A stretch of DNA of 64,000 bases, taken from assembly GCF_000219125.1 (NCBI RefSeq), contig NZ_AFGF01000017.1, forward strand, positions 124,001 to 188,000, given 5' to 3'. Position 1 is the first letter of the stretch. Each line of letters opens with the position of its first letter. Origin of the DNA: Acetonema longum DSM 6540 (GTDB lineage Bacteria > Bacillota > Negativicutes > Sporomusales > Acetonemataceae). This document shows positions 37,782 to 47,900 of the stretch, piece by piece. The position numbers were made by a program, and so were the translations under genes. The notes under the pieces were generated by a model. That model saw only the letters and a program-made list of their open reading frames with translations, made no database searches and had not been told where the DNA came from.

Positions 37782-38858
37782 ATGTCAGGAATTGGATTTA
37801 TTCTTTTAACAGGAATTATTTTCGGCTTGGGCGGGGTTCTGCTGGTCAAGGCCGGTAATCCAGGAAATTATGGCTACTGTGCGGCCTGTCATCTGCGGGA
37901 TATTGCCGGCGCCCTTGGCCTTCACAAAGCCGCTGCACTACAGTATGCCCGCCCGGAAGTACTGGGATGGGTGTTGGGCGCTTTTGCTCTGGCCGGTACA
38001 ACCGGAGAATTTCGTCCCCGGGGCGGTTCTAATCCTTTGGTTCGGTTTATATTGGGTGTGGTTATGATGCTGGGGGCTTTAGTATTCCTCGGCTGCCCGC
38101 TGCGGGCTATCCTGCGTTTAGCCGGCGGCGACTTAAACGGGCTTACCGGGTTGGCCGGCTTTGTTACCGGCATTGGTTTCGGGATTTACTTTTTACGCCG
38201 GGGCTTTAACCTGGGCCGCTCACAGATTCATAGCGGCGGCGTCAGGTTTGCCGGGTACATTCCGGCGATATTGGCGTTTGTCTTAGCGATTGCTGTCGCC
38301 GTCCAGGCGCCTTTCTTAAACTTCAGCGCCCAGGGTGTAGGTGCGCAGCATGCACCCTTTTTCATCAGCCTGGCAGCCGGATTGGCAGCCGGATTAGTGG
38401 CAGCCAAGTCCAGAATGTGCTTAAGCGGCGGATTCCGTGACTTCTTTCTGGTTCGGGATACCTATCTTCTGAAAATCTATGGCGCGATGTTTATTGCGGC
38501 CATGCTGGCCAATATGTACTTTGGATTTTTCAAGCTCGGTTTTACCGGCCAGCCTCTGTCTCATACCATGCATCTGTGGAATTTCTTCGGACTGTTTTTA
38601 GTCGGCCTGTCAGCTACCCTGGCCGGCGGCTGCCCGCTGCGCCAGCTTATTATGGCCGGTGAAGGCAATACCGATGCCATGTTCTGCGTGCTGGGCCTAT
38701 TAGTCGGCGCCGGTATCGCTCACAGCTTTAACACTGCCGGCAGCGTTGCCGGTGTTGGCTTGAACGGCCAGTGGGCTGTTGCTCTGGGTATCGCCCTGAC
38801 TTGCGGTATCGGGTTTGTCTGCCGGGAAAAACTGGCGACAGTGCAGAAGGGGGCATAA
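37782..38858 (+). CDS. yedE: YedE family putative selenium transporter
   Basis: 358 residues with about ten membrane helices. Paired family motifs are seen: YCAACHLRDIAGALGLH, LGCPLRAILRLAGGDLNGL, SRMCLSGGFRDFFLVRD and GGCPLRQLIMAGEGN, where conserved Cys residues line the path. YedE/YeeE proteins carry thiosulfate or, in selenium-trait genomes, probably a selenium compound. It heads the 11-gene cluster and lies four bases before a TusA-like gene. ACAGGAGTGATAAAGT precedes the ATG. Whether S or Se is carried cannot be read from the sequence. Confidence 0.9.
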   Translation: MSGIGFILLTGIIFGLGGVLLVKAGNPGNYGYCAACHLRDIAGALGLHKAAALQYARPEVLGWVLGAFALAGTTGEFRPRGGSNPLVRFILGVVMMLGALVFLGCPLRAILRLAGGDLNGLTGLAGFVTGIGFGIYFLRRGFNLGRSQIHSGGVRFAGYIPAILAFVLAIAVAVQAPFLNFSAQGVGAQHAPFFISLAAGLAAGLVAAKSRMCLSGGFRDFFLVRDTYLLKIYGAMFIAAMLANMYFGFFKLGFTGQPLSHTMHLWNFFGLFLVGLSATLAGGCPLRQLIMAGEGNTDAMFCVLGLLVGAGIAHSFNTAGSVAGVGLNGQWAVALGIALTCGIGFVCREKLATVQKGA

Positions 38859-38861
38859 GCC

Positions 38862-39077
38862 ATGGCGACAGAAAAAATATTGGATTTACGCGGGCTGAGC
38901 TGCCCCATCCCCCTTTTAGAGACGAAAAAGGCTCTGGAAAAGATCCAATCTGTCAAGGTCATTGTGGATGAGACGGTGCCCAAAGAAAACATCCTGAAAT
39001 TTGTCCGTTCCCAAAACTATCATGCGGACTGCAGCGAAAACGGCGGAGAGTATACCATTCTGATTCATAAGCCATAA
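38862..39077 (+). CDS. TusA-like sulfur carrier protein
   Basis: 71 residues, SirA/TusA/YedF fold. The motif LDLRGLSCPIPLLETKKAL holds the persulfide-carrying Cys of the CPxP signature near residue 14. It begins four bases after yedE. It probably accepts sulfur or selenium from the transporter side or from the desulfurase-like enzyme and passes it on. Confidence 0.9.
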   Translation: MATEKILDLRGLSCPIPLLETKKALEKIQSVKVIVDETVPKENILKFVRSQNYHADCSENGGEYTILIHKP

Positions 39078-39139
39078 GCGCCTTATGTGAGTGAGATACA
39101 TCGGGATTGCAGCCGGCAGTCAAACGAGGGAGACGCTTT

Positions 39140-39373
39140 ATGCCTAAAACCTGTGTAATTACTTTTGTCTCGGTCAGTCACGCCTTTCGGGCGGAAACGA
39201 TCCTGCAACAACAGGGAATCGCCGCCCGCCTGATTCCTGTCCCCCGGTCCCTGAGCGGCTGTTGCGAGGGGTTGGCCGCGGCAATCCCTCCGAATGAGGC
39301 GGGAGCAGCGGTGAAACTGCTGCAAGAGCATGGTGTGGGCATGCTGATCCAGGGAGAATCGGTTGAATTATAA
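39140..39373 (+). CDS. DUF3343 family protein 1
   Basis: 77 residues: MPKTCVITFVSVSHAFRAETILQQQGIAARLIPVPRSLSGCCEGLAAAI. DUF3343 proteins are small, with a PVPR...CG/CC motif, and often lie beside yedF and selenium genes (recollection). The Cys pair here (SGCCEG) could carry S or Se. GAGGGAGACGCTTT precedes the ATG. Function unknown. A second, different copy lies at 41168. Confidence 0.8.
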   Translation: MPKTCVITFVSVSHAFRAETILQQQGIAARLIPVPRSLSGCCEGLAAAIPPNEAGAAVKLLQEHGVGMLIQGESVEL

Positions 39374-39429
39374 GAATGCCGGCAAACGATAAAAGCAGAA
39401 GAATACTACGAAGCAAAAGGAGAGAAACA

Positions 39430-40020
39430 ATGCGCCAGATTAATGCCATCGGGGACGCCTGTCCCCTGCCGGTCATTAAAACCAAAAAGGGTCTCGCCGA
39501 AATAGAACAGGGCCAGCTGGAAGTTTTAGTAGACAATGAGACGGCTGTCCAAAATATCCGCCGTTTTGCCGCGTCGCAGGGATGCCAATTTGACGTATCA
39601 CAACAGGACGGTATTTTTCATATCTTGCTGCTCAAAGAAACACCCCAGCCAGGTGATTCTTCCGTCAACAGCGAGACGGGCGCCGTTCAGACGGTTGTCG
39701 TTCTGTCTTCCGACACCATGGGAACCGGCGATGATGAACTGGGGCGTATCTTAATGAAGGGGTTTCTGTTTACCCTCACCCAGTTAGATGTCTTGCCTGA
39801 TGTTATCCTGCTCTATAACACCGGCGCAAAGCTGGCGGCAAAAGGCTCAGCCTCCCTGACAGACCTGATTTCTCTGGAAAAATCGGGGGTTGCCGTCATG
39901 ACCTGCGGCACCTGTTTGAATCATTTTGGGATCACGGAGCAGCTCGGGGTAGGGGAAGTCACCAATATGTACCGCATAGTGGAAGAGATGCGCGACGCCG
40001 GCCGCATCATCCGCCCCTGA
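39430..40020 (+). CDS. yedF: Sulfurtransferase-like selenium metabolism protein YedF
   Basis: 196 residues in two domains: an N-terminal TusA-like unit with DACPLPVIKTKKGLAEI (CPxP), and a C-terminal DsrE-like domain with VVVLSSDTMGTGDDELGRIL, a PDVILLYNTGAKLA strand and the second Cys motif CGTCLNHFGI. This two-domain form is the YedF type associated with selenium use. AAAAGGAGAGAAACA before the ATG at 39430 fixes the start (the frame is open from 39376). The next gene starts 5 bases after it. Confidence 0.9.
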   Translation: MRQINAIGDACPLPVIKTKKGLAEIEQGQLEVLVDNETAVQNIRRFAASQGCQFDVSQQDGIFHILLLKETPQPGDSSVNSETGAVQTVVVLSSDTMGTGDDELGRILMKGFLFTLTQLDVLPDVILLYNTGAKLAAKGSASLTDLISLEKSGVAVMTCGTCLNHFGITEQLGVGEVTNMYRIVEEMRDAGRIIRP

Positions 40021-40024
40021 TCCC

Positions 40025-41167
40025 ATGATTTACTTTGATAACGCCGCCACCAGCCTGCCCAAGCCGCCGACCGTAGGAAGCGCAGTGCTGGCGGCCATCA
40101 ATACCTTCGGCGGCGCCGGAAGGGGCGGTCATTCCGCTTCTCTGGCGGCGACCCGCTGTATCTTTCAGGCCCGAAAGGCAGTAGCCGGACTGCTGGGATC
40201 GGAGGCCGGCCGGACGGCTTTTGCCGCCAACGCGACAGAAAGCTTAAATATCGCCATCTCCGGTCTTTTAACCCGGGCAGATCATGCCATTACCACCGTC
40301 CTGGAGCACAATTCGGTTTTGCGTCCCCTTTACAAACTTCGTTCCCAGGGGATGGGACTATCGATCATTGGCATTGACCCAAAGGGAAATTTGAATTATG
40401 ACGAGTTTCACCGCGCGCTTCGTCCCAACAGCAAAGCGGTAATCTGCACCCATGCCTCCAACCTGACCGGCGCCCTCACCAATTTGCCTTTCATCGCCGA
40501 CTTCTGCCAAGCAAACGGCCTGCTGCTGATTGTAGATGCCTCGCAAACCGCCGGTGTGTTTCCCATTGAGGCGGACAAGCTGGGTATTGATGTTGTCTGC
40601 TTTACCGGCCACAAAGGACTGCTGGGGCCGCAGGGGACCGGCGGGCTCTGCATCCGGAAAGGGCTCGCCGTGATGCCGCTCAAGGTAGGAGGCAGCGGAA
40701 TCCACAGCTATTCCGAAACCCATCCCGAGGGCATGCCCGAGGCTCTGGAAGCAGGCACAGCCAACGCCCATGGCATCGCCGGCTTACTGGCCGGGGTTGA
40801 ATACATTCTTGCATCGGATATAGATACTCTGCGCAACAGAGAACTGGCATTGGCCAAACTCTTTCGCCAGGGAATTTCAACCATTTCCGGAGTTCGTATC
40901 TATGGAAATCCGGATATGCCTCACGCTCCCATTGTAACCTTGAATATCGGTTCCCTGGATTCAGGCGCAGCAGGAGACCGCCTGGCAACCCGCTACGATA
41001 TTTGTGTGCGGACCGGCGCCCATTGCGCGCCGCTGGCTCATTTGGCCTTGGGAACCCAGGAGCAGGGGGCGGTGCGCTTTAGTTTCTCCTCTTTCAATAC
41101 GGAAGAAGAAATCCAAACGGGCATCCGGGCGGTTGCCGAAATTGCCGCGGAATGGGGGCAGAGATAG
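40025..41167 (+). CDS. Class V aminotransferase, cysteine desulfurase / selenocysteine lyase-like
   Basis: 380 residues. MIYFDNAATSLPKPP start, PLP-binding His/Asp in VDASQTAG, PLP-lysine Lys197 in CFTGHKGLLGPQGTGG, and a candidate active Cys334 in RTGAHCAPLAH. It matches the SufS/CsdB group, especially the subgroup often seen next to yedF. It would release sulfur or selenium from (seleno)cysteine as persulfide/selenide for TusA-like or YedF carriers. A DUF3343 gene starts at the very next base after its stop. Confidence 0.9.
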   Translation: MIYFDNAATSLPKPPTVGSAVLAAINTFGGAGRGGHSASLAATRCIFQARKAVAGLLGSEAGRTAFAANATESLNIAISGLLTRADHAITTVLEHNSVLRPLYKLRSQGMGLSIIGIDPKGNLNYDEFHRALRPNSKAVICTHASNLTGALTNLPFIADFCQANGLLLIVDASQTAGVFPIEADKLGIDVVCFTGHKGLLGPQGTGGLCIRKGLAVMPLKVGGSGIHSYSETHPEGMPEALEAGTANAHGIAGLLAGVEYILASDIDTLRNRELALAKLFRQGISTISGVRIYGNPDMPHAPIVTLNIGSLDSGAAGDRLATRYDICVRTGAHCAPLAHLALGTQEQGAVRFSFSSFNTEEEIQTGIRAVAEIAAEWGQR

Positions 41168-41416
41168 ATGACTAAAAGGATGGACCGAACAAAACAGCCC
41201 CAATTGATTATTACTTTTCCCACCACCACCGCCGCGATGGCCATGGAAGCCGCCTGTGGGGCTGAATGGGGGCGATTAATACCCATTCCCCGGGAGATCA
41301 GCGGCAGCTGCGGCCTTGCCTGGTGCGCCGAGCCCCAATGGGAGGACGCGCTGCTCCGGGTGATGGAAAAGAACAACATTCAATATCAGGAAAAGCGAAT
41401 TCTTTTACTCTATTAG
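41168..41416 (+). CDS. DUF3343 family protein 2
   Basis: 82 residues, with the more typical DUF3343 motif LIPIPREISGSCGLAWCAEP and a C-terminal KNNIQYQEKRILLLY. The ATG directly abuts the desulfurase-like stop, so translation is coupled. The two Cys of SCGLAWC are conserved-looking. It differs strongly from the copy at 39140, so the pair is not a recent duplication. Function unknown. Confidence 0.8.
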   Translation: MTKRMDRTKQPQLIITFPTTTAAMAMEAACGAEWGRLIPIPREISGSCGLAWCAEPQWEDALLRVMEKNNIQYQEKRILLLY

Positions 41417-41435
41417 CGAAAGGCGTGATAAGCGG

Positions 41436-42593
41436 ATGATTCAGAAGAAAACCGAATTGCCGCAAATTTTCGAAAGCTTTGGCGAAGCGAGGAAAAATGG
41501 ATTTCTCGCCATGAAGAAAATGAAAGACAACGGCAAAGGCGTGGTGGGCCAGTTCTGTTCCTATACCCCGCTGGAAATTTTTATGGCGGCAGGCCTGGTC
41601 AGCGTAGGCTTGTGCTCTACCAGCGACGAAACCATCCCCGAAGCGGAAAAAGTACTGCCGGCCAATCTATGCCCTCTCATTAAGTCCAGCTATGGCTTTG
41701 CCATTACCGACAAATGCCCCTATATGTATTTTTCCGATCTGGTGGTGGGAGAAACTACCTGCGACGGTAAAGTGAAAATGTACGAACTGTTGGCTAAAAA
41801 GAAAAATGTCCACATCCTGGAACTCCCGCGGCGGCAGGATACACCGGAAGCCAAGGCCCTTTGGCGGGCAGAACTGGTGCGCCTGAAGGAGCGGGTGGAA
41901 AAGGACTTCGGCGCTGCCATTAGCGATGAGCATCTGCGTGACGCGATTCACCGGCGGAATATCGAGCGCAGGCTGCTGAAAGAACTGTATGAACTGAGTA
42001 CTATGGCGCCGCCTCCTATTACCGGGCTGCGGCAGCTGCAAATCCTGTTTGGCTCTCAGTTTAAATTTAACTGGGATGAAAAGGTTGCGGAAATCCAAAA
42101 CGCCATTGACAGCATCCGGGCAGCTTATGAAGCTGGCGAGCGACCGGTCCCGGCAGATGTTCCCCGGATTCTGATTACCGGCTGTCCCATGGGCGGCGTG
42201 ACAGAAAAGGTTGTTAAAGTCATTGAGGAAGCAGGCGCGGTCGTCGTTGCCTTTGAAAATTGCACCGGCGCCAAGCCCATGGACCGGCAATGCCGCGAAG
42301 AAGGCGACCCGCTTACCAACATCGCCGACCACTACCTGCAGATTGGCTGCGCTGTCATGACGCCCGACAACAACCGCTTTGAGCTTTTGGGGCGTCTCTG
42401 CGAACAGTTTCAGGTTAACGGTGTAGTAGAAATGACGCTGCAAGCCTGTCATGCCTACGCAGTGGAAGCGCATTCCGTTAAAGCCTTTCTGCAGGAAAAA
42501 GGCATTCCCTATCTGCAGTTGGAAACCGACTATGGCAGTGCCGACATCGGCCAGCTGTCCACCCGGGCCGGCGCCTTTGTCGAGATGTTATAG
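41436..42593 (+). CDS. Double-cubane-cluster anaerobic reductase (DCCP type)
   Basis: 385 residues, related to the D/B subunits of 2-hydroxyacyl-CoA dehydratase and to BcrC. Candidate cluster ligands include Cys41 (GQFCSYTPLEIFMAAG), Cys79, Cys94 and Cys109 in the first half, and ITGCPMGG, FENCTGAKP and LQACHAYAVEAHSVK in the second. Family members characterised in other anaerobes hold an [8Fe-9S] double-cubane cluster and reduce small molecules such as acetylene; the natural substrate is unknown. Its activase follows after 3 bases. The position after S/Se genes is notable. Confidence 0.88.
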   Translation: MIQKKTELPQIFESFGEARKNGFLAMKKMKDNGKGVVGQFCSYTPLEIFMAAGLVSVGLCSTSDETIPEAEKVLPANLCPLIKSSYGFAITDKCPYMYFSDLVVGETTCDGKVKMYELLAKKKNVHILELPRRQDTPEAKALWRAELVRLKERVEKDFGAAISDEHLRDAIHRRNIERRLLKELYELSTMAPPPITGLRQLQILFGSQFKFNWDEKVAEIQNAIDSIRAAYEAGERPVPADVPRILITGCPMGGVTEKVVKVIEEAGAVVVAFENCTGAKPMDRQCREEGDPLTNIADHYLQIGCAVMTPDNNRFELLGRLCEQFQVNGVVEMTLQACHAYAVEAHSVKAFLQEKGIPYLQLETDYGSADIGQLSTRAGAFVEML

Positions 42594-42596
42594 GCA

Positions 42597-43373
42597 ATGA
42601 TAAAAGCATCCGTCGGCATTGATTGTGGTTCGGCTTCATGTAAAGGCGTCCTCCTTCAAGAGGACGCTGTCCTTGCCTCCTGTGTGCAATCCACCGGCTG
42701 GAGTCCGCGGGAAACTTCCCGGGCGGTTTTGGAGCAGCTTCTGGCGAAGACAGGACTGGCAAGAGAAAACGTACATATTGTCGCTACCGGATATGGCCGG
42801 GTAAGCATCGATTTTGCCCAGCGGGCCGTGACGGAAATCACCTGCCACGGGTTAGGCGCAGATTATTTGCTGCCGGGGGTGCGCACGGTTATTGATATCG
42901 GCGGTCAGGATTCAAAGGTGATTGCCGTGGAAGCCGGACAGGTCCGGTCCTTCCAGATGAACAATAAGTGCGCCGCCGGTACCGGCCGTTTCCTGGAAAT
43001 GTCGGCTAACCGTATGGGCATTGATTTGGCGGAATTTGCAAGCCTTCTGCCCGAAGGGAAAAGCTGTTCGTTAAGCAGTATGTGCGCTGTGTTTGCCGAT
43101 TCGGAAATCATATCGCTGCTGGCAGCGGGAAAGAGCCGTGAGGAAGTGGCCGGCGGTATTATTCAGTTAGTGGTAGACCGGGCAGTCGCCTTGGCAGCCC
43201 GGGTGGAGTCTTCCCCGCCGATACTGCTGACAGGCGGTTTGGCGGGCATGGAGGGGCTTCGAATCGCCCTGGAGAGACAGCTTGGCCAGCCGGTAGCAGC
43301 TTCGGATTTATCCCGTTTTGCCGGCGCTATTGGCGCCGCAAGGACTTACTGGATGAGAAAAGCGAGGAAATGA
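42597..43373 (+). CDS. ATP-driven activase of the double-cubane reductase (BcrAD/HgdC type)
   Basis: 258 residues, ASKHA fold: phosphate-1 loop VGIDCGSASCKGVLL, the IDIGGQDSKVI loop, and the two cluster-ligand Cys of the family, Cys125 (NNKCAAGTGRFLE) and Cys163 (SSMCAVFADSEIISLL). A homodimer holds one [4Fe-4S] between subunits and uses ATP to push low-potential electrons into the partner reductase, which is encoded just upstream. Confidence 0.93.
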   Translation: MIKASVGIDCGSASCKGVLLQEDAVLASCVQSTGWSPRETSRAVLEQLLAKTGLARENVHIVATGYGRVSIDFAQRAVTEITCHGLGADYLLPGVRTVIDIGGQDSKVIAVEAGQVRSFQMNNKCAAGTGRFLEMSANRMGIDLAEFASLLPEGKSCSLSSMCAVFADSEIISLLAAGKSREEVAGGIIQLVVDRAVALAARVESSPPILLTGGLAGMEGLRIALERQLGQPVAASDLSRFAGAIGAARTYWMRKARK

Positions 43374-43406
43374 GTTTTCGGACGAAGTCATCAATAAAAG
43401 GAGTCA

Positions 43407-44252
43407 ATGATGGAGGATAAAAAAGAAGGACTCAGCAGAAGGTCATTTCTTAAGGCCGGAATCGGCGCTGCTGCTGCGGCTTCGGTATCCGGCCTGATGT
43501 TGGCGGGACGGTTTCAGGAAAATTCGCTGCAGGTATGGTCCTGCGGCGGACTGGCTGAAGCCTTTACGGAAGCAAATGGCCTGTATGAGCAGAAAAACGG
43601 CATCCGGATCAATTATACGGGAGCCTTCGCTGCGGCGTTGGGTAAATCCCTTCTGGGGGGAGCGGTCACAGAGGTATTTGCCGGACGGGTGCTGCAACTG
43701 GCCCAAACTCTGAGGAACGACAATAAAATGCTTTACTTCAAACCCCTGTGTTTTACCGAATATGTTCTGATCACCCCTCTGGGGAACCCGGCGGGAATCC
43801 AATCAGTTCAGGACCTTGTCCGGCCGGGAGTCAGGGTTATTCTGCCGCTTGGCGCCTCGCCTCCGGGCGGAGACGCCGTCATGGGCATACTAAAGAAAGC
43901 AAATGTTGGCCAGGCAGTCCTCAAGAATATGATCGAAAAAGAAAGCTGTGTCATCAAAATGATGCCGGCTATCATAAACGGCAAAGGCGAGGCCTCTATC
44001 GTGGAAAGACGCCTTACCCGCCAGGCCGCATTTGCCGGAAAAGTGGAAGTGTTACCCATTCCGGAGGCCCTTTTCCCGCCCGGTCCGCTGACTTTTACCA
44101 TCGGGGTCATGAAGTACGCCAAGGACCGTGTTTTGGCGGATGATTACGTGAACTTCATCTGCTCCGGCGAGGCCCAGGCAATTTTTGAGCGTCATGGCTT
44201 CATTCCGGCCATTTCGGCAAAAGGCAGGATTCTTGTTGAGACACTGGGGTAA
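43407..44252 (+). CDS. Tat-exported ModA-like substrate-binding protein
   Basis: 281 residues. Twin-arginine signal LSRRSFLKAGIGAAAAASVSGLMLAG at residues ~9-34, followed by a periplasmic-binding fold (LQVWSCGGLAEAFTEANGLYEQKNGIRINYTG, PLCFTEYVLITPLGNPAGIQSV, GGDAVMGILKKANVG) of the ModA/WtpA type that binds oxyanions such as molybdate or tungstate. Tat export of a binding protein is unusual and may mean it folds with a cofactor inside. No ABC permease or ATPase is nearby, so it probably works with the membrane ferredoxin encoded next rather than with a transporter. AAAAGGAG precedes the ATG. Confidence 0.78.
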   Translation: MMEDKKEGLSRRSFLKAGIGAAAAASVSGLMLAGRFQENSLQVWSCGGLAEAFTEANGLYEQKNGIRINYTGAFAAALGKSLLGGAVTEVFAGRVLQLAQTLRNDNKMLYFKPLCFTEYVLITPLGNPAGIQSVQDLVRPGVRVILPLGASPPGGDAVMGILKKANVGQAVLKNMIEKESCVIKMMPAIINGKGEASIVERRLTRQAAFAGKVEVLPIPEALFPPGPLTFTIGVMKYAKDRVLADDYVNFICSGEAQAIFERHGFIPAISAKGRILVETLG

Positions 44253-44255
44253 AAG

Positions 44256-45029
44256 ATGCCTAATCAAATAGAATTTACAAAACCAGCGAGGGTTTCATTG
44301 ACGAAGATCCGCCGCGGAGTTCAGTTGGCCATGCTGACTGTTTTGGGGCCATGGGCCTATTATGGAATTTTTCGCTGCCCGTTTCTTGTCCCGTTTGTGA
44401 ACTGCCAGGTCTGCCCGGTTCTTACCTGCTGGGGCAGGATCACAAGTTACTTCTGGGGCTTTTGGCTGTTTTTGCCGGTGACGGTTTTGCTGGTCGGACG
44501 GGCTTTTTGCGGCTGGCTCTGTCCCGGCGGGTACGTCAATCAGATCGTCGGTAAGTTCTCATTTCTAAAGATACGTAAGCGCAACCGGTTTGTGCGATTT
44601 GCCCCGGCGGGAATGGTTATGGCGCTGGCTGCGGTAGCGGTTATCTGGTTTGGCTGGCACAACCCCAGGATGATGGTGCCGATCAGGGTTGGTGAATTTT
44701 GGAGTTCAACCCGGCTTTCCTTCGAGCACGCCTCCCTGGCTTGGCTAATCCGCACGTTTGTTGTTTTGGGGCTGACAGCATCGGGCTTGCTTGTGGCTAA
44801 TCTGTGGTGCCGCTTTGTCTGTCCTACCGGCGGTTTACTGGAATTGCTCAAGGGTATGGCTGCCTTTCGCGTTTTCAAAACCAGTGACTGCAATGGTTGC
44901 AATATCTGCATGCAAGTATGCGAGATGGGGACCCGGCCGGATGAAATGAATTGCACGAATTGCGGTGACTGCCTCGAAATCTGTCCTGTCGGGGCTATAA
45001 AATTCGGGAAAAAGAAAGAATGGCAATGA
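44256..45029 (+). CDS. NapH-like membrane-bound ferredoxin
   Basis: 257 residues with four or so membrane helices, paired cytoplasmic-side motifs RAFCGWLCPGGY and NLWCRFVCPTGG, and a C-terminal pair of 4Fe-4S motifs, CNGCNICMQVCEMG and CTNCGDCLEICPVGAI. NapH/CcoG-type proteins take electrons from quinols and pass them outward or inward. Here it may supply electrons to the reductase or to the radical SAM enzyme. It starts 4 bases after the binding-protein stop and overlaps the next gene. Confidence 0.88.
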   Translation: MPNQIEFTKPARVSLTKIRRGVQLAMLTVLGPWAYYGIFRCPFLVPFVNCQVCPVLTCWGRITSYFWGFWLFLPVTVLLVGRAFCGWLCPGGYVNQIVGKFSFLKIRKRNRFVRFAPAGMVMALAAVAVIWFGWHNPRMMVPIRVGEFWSSTRLSFEHASLAWLIRTFVVLGLTASGLLVANLWCRFVCPTGGLLELLKGMAAFRVFKTSDCNGCNICMQVCEMGTRPDEMNCTNCGDCLEICPVGAIKFGKKKEWQ

Positions 45030-45901
45030 GTGAGCGCTGCGAACAAAGGTCTCGTGATCAGCACCCCTGTTTTCACGGAAAAGCCAGTGCCCGCTGGGGC
45101 CGGATTCATTTGCCGGTAGCGCCGGCCTGCAATATTCAGTGCAATTTCTGCAACCGGCTCTACGATTGCGTCAATGAAAGTCGCCCGGGAGTGACCGGAC
45201 GTATTCTCACGCCGTCGGAAGCGCTGACGACTTTGAGCCGGCTTTTGCAACAAAGAAATGATATTGCCGTGGTCGGAATTGCCGGACCGGGAGACCCGCT
45301 TTGCGATCCGAACCGGACCTTGGAAACTCTGCGCGCCGTTCACGCCGCCTATCCCGGGATTTTGCTTTGTGTATCCACCAACGGACTGAATCTGTCCGGC
45401 TATATTGATCAACTGGCCGACACCGGAGTGACTCACGTCACCGTAACGGTCAATGCGGTTGATCCCTATGTCGGTCAACAGATTTACGCTTCGGTTACAG
45501 TAAAGCAACAGACCTATCGGGGACTTGAAGCCGCCAGGATTCTTCTCGGCCGGCAGGAAGAGGCCGTCGTCGGCTTGAAACAAAGAGGGATGACGGTCAA
45601 GATCAATACGGTCGTTCTTCCCGGTATTAATACCGGCCATATTTCTGCTATTGCCGCCAAGGTAGCCGCCTGGGAAGCCGACGCTATGAACTGTATACCC
45701 CTGATCCCCGTCCATGGCACTCCTTTTGCGGAGCTTACGGCTCCCGGCGATGTGGAAATGGCCTACATACGAAAATCAGTAGCCGTCTATTTGCCGCAGA
45801 TTTATCATTGCCGCCGCTGCCGGGCGGATGCTGCAGGACTGCTTGGCGGCTGTGCTGCAAACGCACAGGGTGGGAGTGCTGAATCAGGGAGAACTGAATG
45901 A
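45026..45901 (+). CDS. NifB-signature radical SAM protein
   Basis: 291 residues from the ATG overlapping the upstream stop (ATGA); an ATG at 45020 is also possible. It carries CNIQCNFCNRLYDCVNESRPGV (given as landmark), with Cys35, Cys39 and Cys42 for the radical SAM cluster and the NESRPG stretch characteristic of NifB. GPGDPL and KINTVVLPGIN follow, and CRRCRADAAG near the C-terminus may hold a further cluster. NifB fuses Fe-S units into an 8Fe carbide precursor of nitrogenase cofactors. There is no NifX-like tail and no nif gene in the window, so the product here may be another cofactor. Confidence 0.85.
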   Translation: MSERCEQRSRDQHPCFHGKASARWGRIHLPVAPACNIQCNFCNRLYDCVNESRPGVTGRILTPSEALTTLSRLLQQRNDIAVVGIAGPGDPLCDPNRTLETLRAVHAAYPGILLCVSTNGLNLSGYIDQLADTGVTHVTVTVNAVDPYVGQQIYASVTVKQQTYRGLEAARILLGRQEEAVVGLKQRGMTVKINTVVLPGINTGHISAIAAKVAAWEADAMNCIPLIPVHGTPFAELTAPGDVEMAYIRKSVAVYLPQIYHCRRCRADAAGLLGGCAANAQGGSAESGRTE

Positions 45902-45948
45902 AAAAATCTCGTTAATAATGATAATGCTTAGACAAATTAGCCTCGTAT

Positions 45949-45985
45949 AAAAAACACGGCTTACCTAAAAAGCGCCGTGTTTTTT
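45949..45985. terminator. Terminator of the Se/S Fe-S cluster
   Basis: AAAAAACACGGC pairs perfectly with GCCGTGTTTTTT around a 13-base loop about 50 bases after the last gene. It would work in both directions. Confidence 0.93.
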
Positions 45986-46141
45986 ATTATCATGCTGACA
46001 GCGACTTAAGCAGGATTAAAGGATAGGAATGAATTTAGGACGAATACTTAACTGGAATTTTTCAATGGGTTAAGCTCTTCAATAAGACGGATCGCTAGTG
46101 GGGTCCTGTTGAGAAAAAAACGGTAAAGCCGTATTAAATAA

Positions 46142-46871: not shown

Positions 46872-47900
46872 TTATACAAGATATTCCACATGCGCCTGCG
46901 GAAAGTATTGCTGCGTCAGTCTGTTCATAAACTCTTTTACAGAATCCATGGCTTCCTTCTGATAAACGTACTTGCCGTAACCAAACTGGCCAAATTTATA
47001 CGCTCTTTCCTCCTCTTGCAGCGGCAAGCTGGTTTGAGGAAACAAGTCCAGAATTTGGTTTTTGGCTCGTTTGGTAAACCGGTGGGTGATAAATTCAAAG
47101 GTAATATCCCTTGCCGCATCAGCAGGTAATGCATCTGCCAGCAGCTGCATCAGGGCAGTATACTCTTCCTGCCAATGATCCATCATCATGATTGGCGCGA
47201 TGATAAAACCAATAGGATAACCTGCCGCCGCCACCTTAGCCGCCGCTTTAATTCTCTCTGTAACCGGTGGCGTAGCATGTTCGTAACGATTTGCTGCTGC
47301 TTCGGCGTTCAGGCTAAACCGGAAACGGGTGTGGCCCTGATGCGATAAGCTCAAAAGCGAGTCTACGTCGCAAAACTTTGTTACGAACCGGAACCTGCCG
47401 TATTTTTGTTTTCCGAAAAATTCGATCGTACTGCCCAATAAGCCAGTAAGATATTCGGTAGGAATCGGGTCGGACGTTGCCGCCCCTTCGAACAGAGTGA
47501 TCTCAGGCGCGCGCTGGGCAATATAGTCCCCAGCCTTCCTGAGGATCTCCTCAATATTGACATACACCCGCACATACGGTTTTTTGCCTAATGTGGTTGC
47601 CAGGTAGCAGTATTCACACATGCCGGGACAACTGGTATTAAGCGGCAGCTGGTAATGCGCCGAAGGTTTGCACGCGGCAAAGTCCAACCCTTTTCGTACG
47701 CCGACCACTAAAGTTCGCTTCGCTTCACGGTAACCCTCTTGCGCCGTGTTTCCCGGAATTCCGGTTACCCGGTTATGTGAGCCGGTTACGCGTATGTCAA
47801 CCTGCATGGATTCCAGGTGATCGCGTATTTGGCGGCCCAGCGGAAACTCAAGCGCCGCGGGTTCAAAAAAAGCGCGTCTGGGAATAAATCGCTGTTGCAT
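46872..47900 (-). CDS. splB: Spore photoproduct lyase
   Basis: 342 residues. SplB repairs the thymine dimer 5-thyminyl-5,6-dihydrothymine during spore germination, by radical SAM chemistry. The SPL-type motif C91-x3-C95-x2-C98 (TSCPGMCEYCYLATTLG) is intact, and RFVTKFCDVDSLL carries the conserved extra Cys near residue 180 that quenches the product radical. RFRFSLNAE and FITHRFTKRAK are further family marks. This is good evidence for endospore formation. The ATG at 47900 follows GAAAGGAAGGCCCAT. It stands alone here. Confidence 0.96.
   Translation of the reverse strand: MQQRFIPRRAFFEPAALEFPLGRQIRDHLESMQVDIRVTGSHNRVTGIPGNTAQEGYREAKRTLVVGVRKGLDFAACKPSAHYQLPLNTSCPGMCEYCYLATTLGKKPYVRVYVNIEEILRKAGDYIAQRAPEITLFEGAATSDPIPTEYLTGLLGSTIEFFGKQKYGRFRFVTKFCDVDSLLSLSHQGHTRFRFSLNAEAAANRYEHATPPVTERIKAAAKVAAAGYPIGFIIAPIMMMDHWQEEYTALMQLLADALPADAARDITFEFITHRFTKRAKNQILDLFPQTSLPLQEEERAYKFGQFGYGKYVYQKEAMDSVKEFMNRLTQQYFPQAHVEYLV

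Follow-up and report, generated by a model that had tools for sequence, protein, structure and literature searches.

What does a NifB-type radical SAM protein do at a locus without nitrogenase genes? The question is posed by the last gene of a same-strand run (37782–45901, +) in a 64-kb stretch of the Acetonema longum genome, hereafter the window. The run holds selenium and sulfur genes and, as the initial annotation had described, the NifB-family gene closes it, ahead of a hairpin with a T tail. The features discussed below are the following.

37782–38858 (+): YedE, putative selenium transporter, recurrent neighbour of the conserved unit (TIGR04112, 443 bits)
39107–39373 (+): selenium/sulfur carrier-like protein (DUF3343), neighbour (PF11823)
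39376–40020 (+): YedF selenium-metabolism protein, neighbour (TIGR03527, 220 bits)
40025–41167 (+): cysteine desulfurase/selenocysteine-lyase family protein, neighbour (TIGR01977, 386 bits)
41168–41416 (+): second selenium/sulfur carrier-like protein, neighbour (PF11823)
41436–42593 (+): double-cubane-cluster-type reductase of the HgdB family, non-conserved neighbour (NF040772, 511 bits; cut-off 350)
42597–43373 (+): ATPase activase (HgdC type) of the double-cubane reductase, neighbour (TIGR00241, 245 bits)
43407–44252 (+): SBP, solute-binding-fold protein with a Tat signal, 281 aa, predicted NifB client (Pfam SBP_bac_11, E = 1.2e-43; TAT_signal)
44256–45029 (+): NapH-type membrane ferredoxin, 257 aa, predicted electron carrier for the SBP (TIGR02163, 54.7 bits; Fer4_5 and Fer4)
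45026–45901 (+): NifB-family radical SAM protein, stand-alone, without NifX, 291 aa (TIGR01290, 311 bits; ligands kept)
45947–45987 (+): hairpin with an A/T tail 3′ of the NifB gene, which probably ends transcription of the unit (folding energy −17.1 kcal/mol, z = −4.0; not listed by a consensus terminator scan)

A NifB-family gene away from nitrogenase genes

The NifB reading frame (45020/45026–45901, +) is open, and its ATG at 45026 overlaps the stop codon of the NapH-like gene as ATGA. The resemblance to NifB first read from the radical SAM motif and the NESRPG stretch holds: nifB (TIGR01290) is the top NCBIfam family, with 311 bits (E = 1.1e-92) compared with 53 bits for MoaA. This score does not reach the TIGR01290 equivalog cut-off of 343.65 bits, which some NifBs of the conserved unit described below exceed, for example that of Campylobacter concisus (G381, 351 bits). 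A Pfam scan returned a Radical_SAM domain alone, in line with the reported lack of a NifX domain. The nearest solved structures are 6y1x (E = 3.8e-78; labelled ‘Radical SAM domain protein’), which we take to be a Methanothrix NifB, and the NifB-named chains 7bi7, 7jmb and 7jma. Another CxxxCxxC-type motif (CPGMCEYC) occurs in a protein encoded 1 kb downstream on the opposite strand (46872–47900, −); by resemblance, this protein is probably of the spore-photoproduct-lyase kind.

The initial annotation saw no nif gene in the window, and tblastn searches of the 64 kb with four nitrogenase-like proteins of the same genome and with two NifH-like proteins indeed found no NifD/K-like and no NifH-like gene at E 1e-3. 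Elsewhere, the assembly (4.3 Mb, 99.93% complete, 1.57% contamination) carries a second NifB-family gene on contig C269, 43% identical to the window NifB with two nitrogenase-like genes next to it. Contigs C161 and C204 each carry a further nitrogenase-like pair, giving six nitrogenase-family open reading frames (ORFs) outside the window’s contig, and NifH-like genes are found on C185 and C54. None of the six ORFs reaches an NCBIfam nif cut-off, so the genome has no recognisable NifDK or NifEN. A complete nif regulon with the window gene as its sole nifB, the one finding that was to count against a non-nitrogenase role, is thus not the case.

Two of the nitrogenase-like pairs (L090:7763–10274 and L091:2036–4553) adjoin transporter genes that by eye resemble iron-uptake ABC systems, and no NifB gene is near either pair at these loci. 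In small genomes of the same class, NifB-family genes 43–46% identical to the window’s (L213, L214 and L215) stand beside weakly nitrogenase-like genes (22–27% identity to the queries).

The conserved partners are an SBP and a NapH-type ferredoxin

To place the gene in context, we compared 80 of 197 loci encoding a NifB relative. SBP, NapH and NifB occur in the same order and on the same strand in the window and in 13 of the 80 loci, an arrangement shared by three phyla. A nitrogenase-like gene is near in none of the 13, whereas most of the other 67 loci either have one nearby or are truncated at a contig end. Beyond SBP and NapH, the neighbours vary between unit loci. SelD-type, ABC-transporter, porin-type, two-component, transglutaminase-like and other genes were considered as obligatory partners and rejected, each being near some loci only. 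As context, the sulfur/selenium cluster that had been pointed to gives way to the two genes just upstream of NifB. The NapH-type protein scores below the TIGR02163 napH cut-off (54.7 against 213 bits), and its CP motifs are conserved.

We propose, with a probability of roughly 0.5, that SBP, NapH and NifB form one functional unit that serves a redox protein of the cell envelope, in which the SBP would hold the NifB cluster and NapH would pass electrons to it.

NifBs of the unit keep all cluster ligands and lie within the NifB family

The window NifB carries the motifs CNIQCNFC, HPCF and NESRPG. Residues C15, H28, C35, C39, C42, C48, C115, C262 and C265 are conserved in all 28 NifBs of the unit. 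The K1 and K2 ligands were scored as the HPC cysteine, the histidine of RxHxP, the cysteine after the SAM motif, the cysteine before STNG, and CxxCRxD, with identities taken from PMC7145814. Together with CxxxCxxC, they are complete in 28/28 unit NifBs and in 51/51 nif NifBs used for comparison. The position of a third K2 cysteine, put forward for M. acetivorans, is not conserved (cysteine in 0/28 and 1/51, respectively). The glutamate of ExRPG is present in 27 of the 28 unit NifBs and replaced by alanine in the remaining one (L013). The NifB on C269 (L089:1106–2005), which is flanked by transporter as well as nitrogenase-like genes, is gapped at the K1 cysteine after the SAM motif (Cys48 of the window NifB), and its cluster chemistry may differ.

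The initial annotation had named placement outside the NifB clade, with all cluster ligands kept, as support for a new function. The ligands are kept, as described; the placement is otherwise. In a tree of 82 rows, hand-picked for spread from 160 full-length NifB matches and built with archaeal NifB and MoaA rows left out, the window NifB belongs to the NifB family and, within it, to a separate clade. The unit NifBs form two strongly supported (starred) clades of 21 rows (100/99) and 7 rows (100/96), apart from the nitrogenase NifBs of the window’s own class. Constraining them to a single clade gave a higher likelihood and was not rejected (p-AU = 0.573).

At two loci (L151:5215–7917 and L156:8011–10401), a different NifB lineage sits directly 5′ of SBP–NapH, with a cysteine in an RCPG/HCPG motif replacing the usual K1 cysteine position. 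These two NifBs group elsewhere in the tree, with the C269 gene (99/97), and their union with the unit clade is not firmly rejected (p-AU = 0.09). Here, the SBP seems to have become associated with a NifB independently. For C. concisus, the NifB branches from within a group of Megasphaera relatives. These relatives also have the closest SBP and NapH sequences once another Campylobacterales locus is set aside, a pattern that suggests joint movement of the three genes.

The unit NifBs might instead have diverged, so as to build a non-carbide or selenium cluster or to carry out methylation only, while still serving the SBP. Their own clade, the selenium genes nearby and the lost ExRPG glutamate in one member are compatible with such a change. 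It is countered by the full ligand set in 28/28 proteins and by seven units that have no NifB of their own and coexist with other, mostly nitrogenase-type NifBs, from which they would need the same product. We consider divergence unlikely.

The SBP has a ModA-like fold, a Tat signal and three invariant cysteines

The proposed recipient of the cluster, the SBP, has a type II periplasmic-binding fold, confirmed by an AF2 model (pLDDT 79.8) and structure comparison. The best solved match is ModA (4kd5; Z = 26.3, rmsd 1.9 over 224 residues), and PEB3 and AcfC match near Z = 20 (PEB3 3fj7, Z = 19.8). Pfam TAT_signal scores 22.7 bits, at its cut-off of 22.7. The twin arginine, in an RRxFL-type motif, is found in 32 of 33 rows of an alignment made without the damaged copy at L158 (G623); because L010 and L161 are very likely one genome, ~32 rows are independent. 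Of its cysteines, Cys46, Cys115 and Cys181 alone are invariant (33/33), and the same alignment has no invariant histidine.

In a profile alignment with 4kd5, Cys46 falls two residues before the residue equated with ModA Ser12, and Cys181 one residue before the equivalent of ModA Val152. We take Ser12 and Val152 of E. coli ModA to be oxyanion contacts. Cys115 aligns to the stretch taken as the first lobe-connecting one of ModA. Among the PDB matches is a ModA (3axf) into which cysteines were engineered at positions 11 and 153, near two of the natural cysteines of the SBP. In PEB3, the first two of the SBP cysteine positions are occupied by other residues. From these alignments, we infer that the three invariant cysteines lie at loops of the ModA oxyanion pocket. 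Other invariant stretches (around YTGAF, SxPG and ExRxT) appear to sit in pocket loops as well; of the pocket loops, 71–90 and 151–160 are modelled at pLDDT 69–76.

Pfam and NCBIfam scans found no ABC permease or ATPase in the conserved unit, and the ABC genes that adjoin it at two loci (L009 and L012) come with their own NMT1-type binding protein. Taken together, the cysteine-bearing ModA-like pocket, the Tat signal and the lack of a permease suggest a bound metallocofactor that is inserted in the cytoplasm. We put the SBP at about even odds of being the holder of the NifB-made cluster.

A protein of this fold could also be an unusual binder of oxyanions or metals, such as arsenite or selenite, in which case the NifB cluster would go to the NapH-type protein or to an unlinked one. 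The ModA/PEB3 fold and the selenium and sulfur neighbours agree with this, and three thiolates suit ions such as arsenite or selenite. With no invariant histidine, the three cysteines might bind a metal ion, a [4Fe–4S] cluster or an arsenic or selenium species. Ion binding accords less well with a Tat signal in 32 of 33 rows, with a window unit that has no ABC permease and with the presence of NifB in every genome that has an intact SBP, and we regard it as a somewhat poorer prospect than a diverged NifB.

Selenium, sulfur and double-cubane neighbours

YedE lies within 6 kb of the unit in 14 of 37 loci, closer than 1.5 kb in all except the window, and does so in two phyla and in different orientations. 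YedE, YedF, DUF3343, selenocysteine lyase and 2-hydroxyglutaryl-CoA-dehydratase-type (HgdB/HgdC-type) genes make up a known selenium neighbourhood, as described in PMC5322559. An Alginate_exp-type outer-membrane protein precedes SBP or NifB–SBP at four loci (L148, L151 and L156 by scan, L152 by similarity), consistent with an external substrate.

Double-cubane-cluster proteins carry an [8Fe–9S] cluster, and the NifB product might feed the adjacent protein of this family and not the SBP. Its gene and that of the activase stand directly upstream of the unit in the window, and relatives occur within 6 kb in 5 of 37 loci, in two phyla. The other 32 loci have no such gene within 6 kb (some hold less than 6 kb of flank), whereas SBP and NapH travel with NifB; moreover, HgdB/HgdC-type genes with YedF and DUF3343 are at home in the selenium neighbourhood described in PMC5322559. 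Because the gene is near in 5/37 loci only, we dropped the double-cubane protein as the leading idea for the NifB client and now hold it very unlikely; a looser functional tie between the pair (41436–43373) and the unit is possible. Double-cubane relatives were seen near the SBP unit at L014, L147, L150 and L156.

The SBP–NapH pair occurs with NifB and independently of nitrogenase

Returning to the SBP as the proposed NifB client, we built a profile from 13 SBPs, free of NifB information, and searched 1,023 genomes of three lineages: the window’s class, the order of C. concisus and the phylum of Syntrophus, the latter two chosen as search centres for carrying the unit. The SBP was found in 41 genomes: 23/380, 3/248 and 15/395, respectively. 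In the window’s class, NapH comes next in 23/23 and NifB follows in 21/23; one exception has no unit NifB (G302), and the other has a piece with a stop soon after residue 77 (G299). Among the 18 SBP-positive genomes of the other two groups, ten have a NifB of the unit type after NapH (L014, L016, L143–L147, L149, L150 and L157), two have a different NifB before the SBP (L151 and L156) and five have no NifB near it (L148 and L152–L155).

Two genomes hold damaged copies. In G623, a member of the Campylobacterales whose relatives hold intact copies, the unit has decayed (L158:8102–8950), with an internal stop in the SBP and with NapH and NifB gone. In G084 (L207:2305–4410), an internal segment of the SBP gene is missing while the adjacent NapH and NifB genes are intact; NifB can thus persist, for a short time at least, after damage to the SBP.

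A NifB recognised by TIGR01290 is present in all 23 SBP-positive genomes of the class and in 17 of the 18 others, the exception being G623. At E 1e-40, this family occurs in 103/380 genomes of the class and in 109/395 of the Syntrophus phylum overall, and in 80/357 and 94/380, respectively, of those that are SBP-negative. Excluding G623 and G084, 39 genomes have an intact SBP, and every one has a NifB, be it in the unit, of a different lineage beside the SBP (2) or elsewhere with nitrogenase-family genes (7). As a control, we hand-picked ten other sub-cut-off NifB loci of the class from the listed places, outside the unit and with flanks; all ten are beside nitrogenase-family genes and none beside an SBP–NapH pair.

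Nitrogenase-family genes (PF00148) are present in 26 of the 41 SBP-positive genomes, and 15 have none over the cut-off (8/23 in the class, 7/18 in the others). Six of the eight in the class are 99–100% complete with 1% contamination. All 14 intact-SBP genomes without nitrogenase-family genes keep NifB in the unit. By contrast, 7 of the 25 with such genes have lost or broken the unit NifB and have another elsewhere (7/25 versus 0/14; one-sided Fisher 0.031, for genomes that are not phylogenetically independent). In the Syntrophus phylum, five of five such cases have a NifB elsewhere against a background of 94/380 (0.0009, or ~0.015 if close relatives are pooled into three lineages). This pattern of a need for NifB, to be filled in cis or in trans, argues more strongly than any other result for a dependence of the SBP–NapH pair on the NifB product. 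Both this dependence on NifB and the independence from nitrogenase are well supported.

The initial annotation had suggested a precursor for a non-nitrogenase cofactor. Its non-nitrogenase half stands on the 14 genomes that have an intact unit and no PF00148 gene over the cut-off; that a precursor is made is suggested by the ligands kept in 28/28 proteins and by the co-occurrence of NifB with the SBP. Least probable of the alternatives is that the NifB paralogue provides additional maturation capacity for an enzyme encoded elsewhere, either a nitrogenase or one resembling it (such as a methylthio-alkane-reductase-like enzyme), with SBP and NapH incidental: the three nitrogenase-like pairs of A. 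longum and PF00148 in 26/41 genomes would allow it, but the 14 nitrogenase-free genomes, six of them 99–100% complete, led us to drop it as a general case, the gene order is kept over three phyla, and the nitrogenase-like pair on C269 has its own adjacent NifB-family gene.

A predicted exported redox protein

On the reading that we favour, of the SBP as a cluster-bearing redox protein, NifB would fuse two [4Fe–4S] clusters and insert a carbon from SAM in the cytoplasm, as its family and kept ligands imply, yielding a NifB-co-type ([8Fe–9S–C]) or closely related cluster. The alignment would place this cluster between the two SBP lobes, held by some of the three invariant cysteines. Loaded and folded, the SBP would be exported by Tat, the signal for which is observed. 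Electrons would reach the SBP from the NapH-type protein, as its family suggests; this protein has CP motifs in the membrane and [4Fe–4S] motifs on the cytoplasmic side. In the weakest step, the SBP would catalyse the periplasmic reduction of a small molecule, perhaps one containing sulfur or selenium, and YedE would import the product. YedE and the other selenium and sulfur neighbours are a hint to the SBP chemistry, and the chemistry itself is a guess.

The conservation of the unit in three phyla, with many members devoid of nitrogenase, may point to an unrecognised use of the cofactor at the cell envelope. If so, [8Fe–9S–C] would be used independently in an unrelated fold, exported, in nitrogenase-free bacteria, and the SBP would be a far simpler client than NifDK or NifEN, offering a test of what the cluster does alone. 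It also makes nifB unusable as a marker of diazotrophy.

Comparison with known systems

In the full-text literature, with subscription papers and preprints largely outside it, we found no description of an SBP–NapH–NifB unit or of an exported solute-binding-fold client of NifB; a search within PMC5715403 and PMC6321876 likewise gave nothing relevant.

Its components have known relatives. Like the stand-alone NifB of nitrogenase systems, the unit NifBs have all SAM-, K1- and K2-cluster ligands, and they lie inside the NifB tree, with 311 bits to TIGR01290 for the window protein. Unlike it, the window NifB is below the equivalog cut-off, and the unit NifBs form their own clade, stand beside SBP and NapH and not beside nif genes, and occur without nitrogenase. 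The SBP shares fold and pocket loop layout with the binding proteins ModA, PEB3 and AcfC (4kd5, Z = 26.3; 3fj7, Z = 19.8), from which it differs by its Tat signal, its three invariant cysteines and its linkage to NifB and NapH instead of a permease. NapH/NosR-type ferredoxins have the domain layout and CP motifs of the unit’s NapH, which scores 54.7 against a cut-off of 213 and has an SBP-fold partner, not a nitrate or nitrous-oxide reductase. The double-cubane-cluster protein and its activase are adjacent in the window and represent an 8-iron cluster protein, but have no conserved linkage with the unit NifB clade (5/37 loci).

Two systems provide precedents for NifB outside nitrogen fixation. 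Methylthio-alkane reductase, with MarB, likewise involves a NifB homologue that does not serve N2 fixation, and sulfur chemistry; its client, according to PMC12552129, is the nitrogenase-family MarDK with MarH, none of which accompanies the SBP–NapH–NifB unit. The 64-kb window has no nitrogenase-family HDK genes and hence no MarBHDK-like arrangement. The MCR activation system of methanogens comes closer in that NifB is linked to a non-nitrogenase client and the clusters reside in other protein folds: PMC12176620 describes [8Fe–9S–C]-type clusters in McrC and Mmp7, and two cysteines bind one of these clusters. This system differs in being archaeal, in relaying electrons to F430 and in having no SBP or NapH. 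In PMC12176620, [8Fe–9S–C] is said to have been described only in the Nif family until this MCR-activation structure of 2025, presented as a case beyond it. Tentatively, and at somewhat less than even odds, we suggest a third natural home for [8Fe–9S–C]: a Tat-exported SBP reduced via NapH, acting as an extracytoplasmic reductase tied to selenium or sulfur uptake, in nitrogenase-free bacteria including C. concisus and Colibacter.
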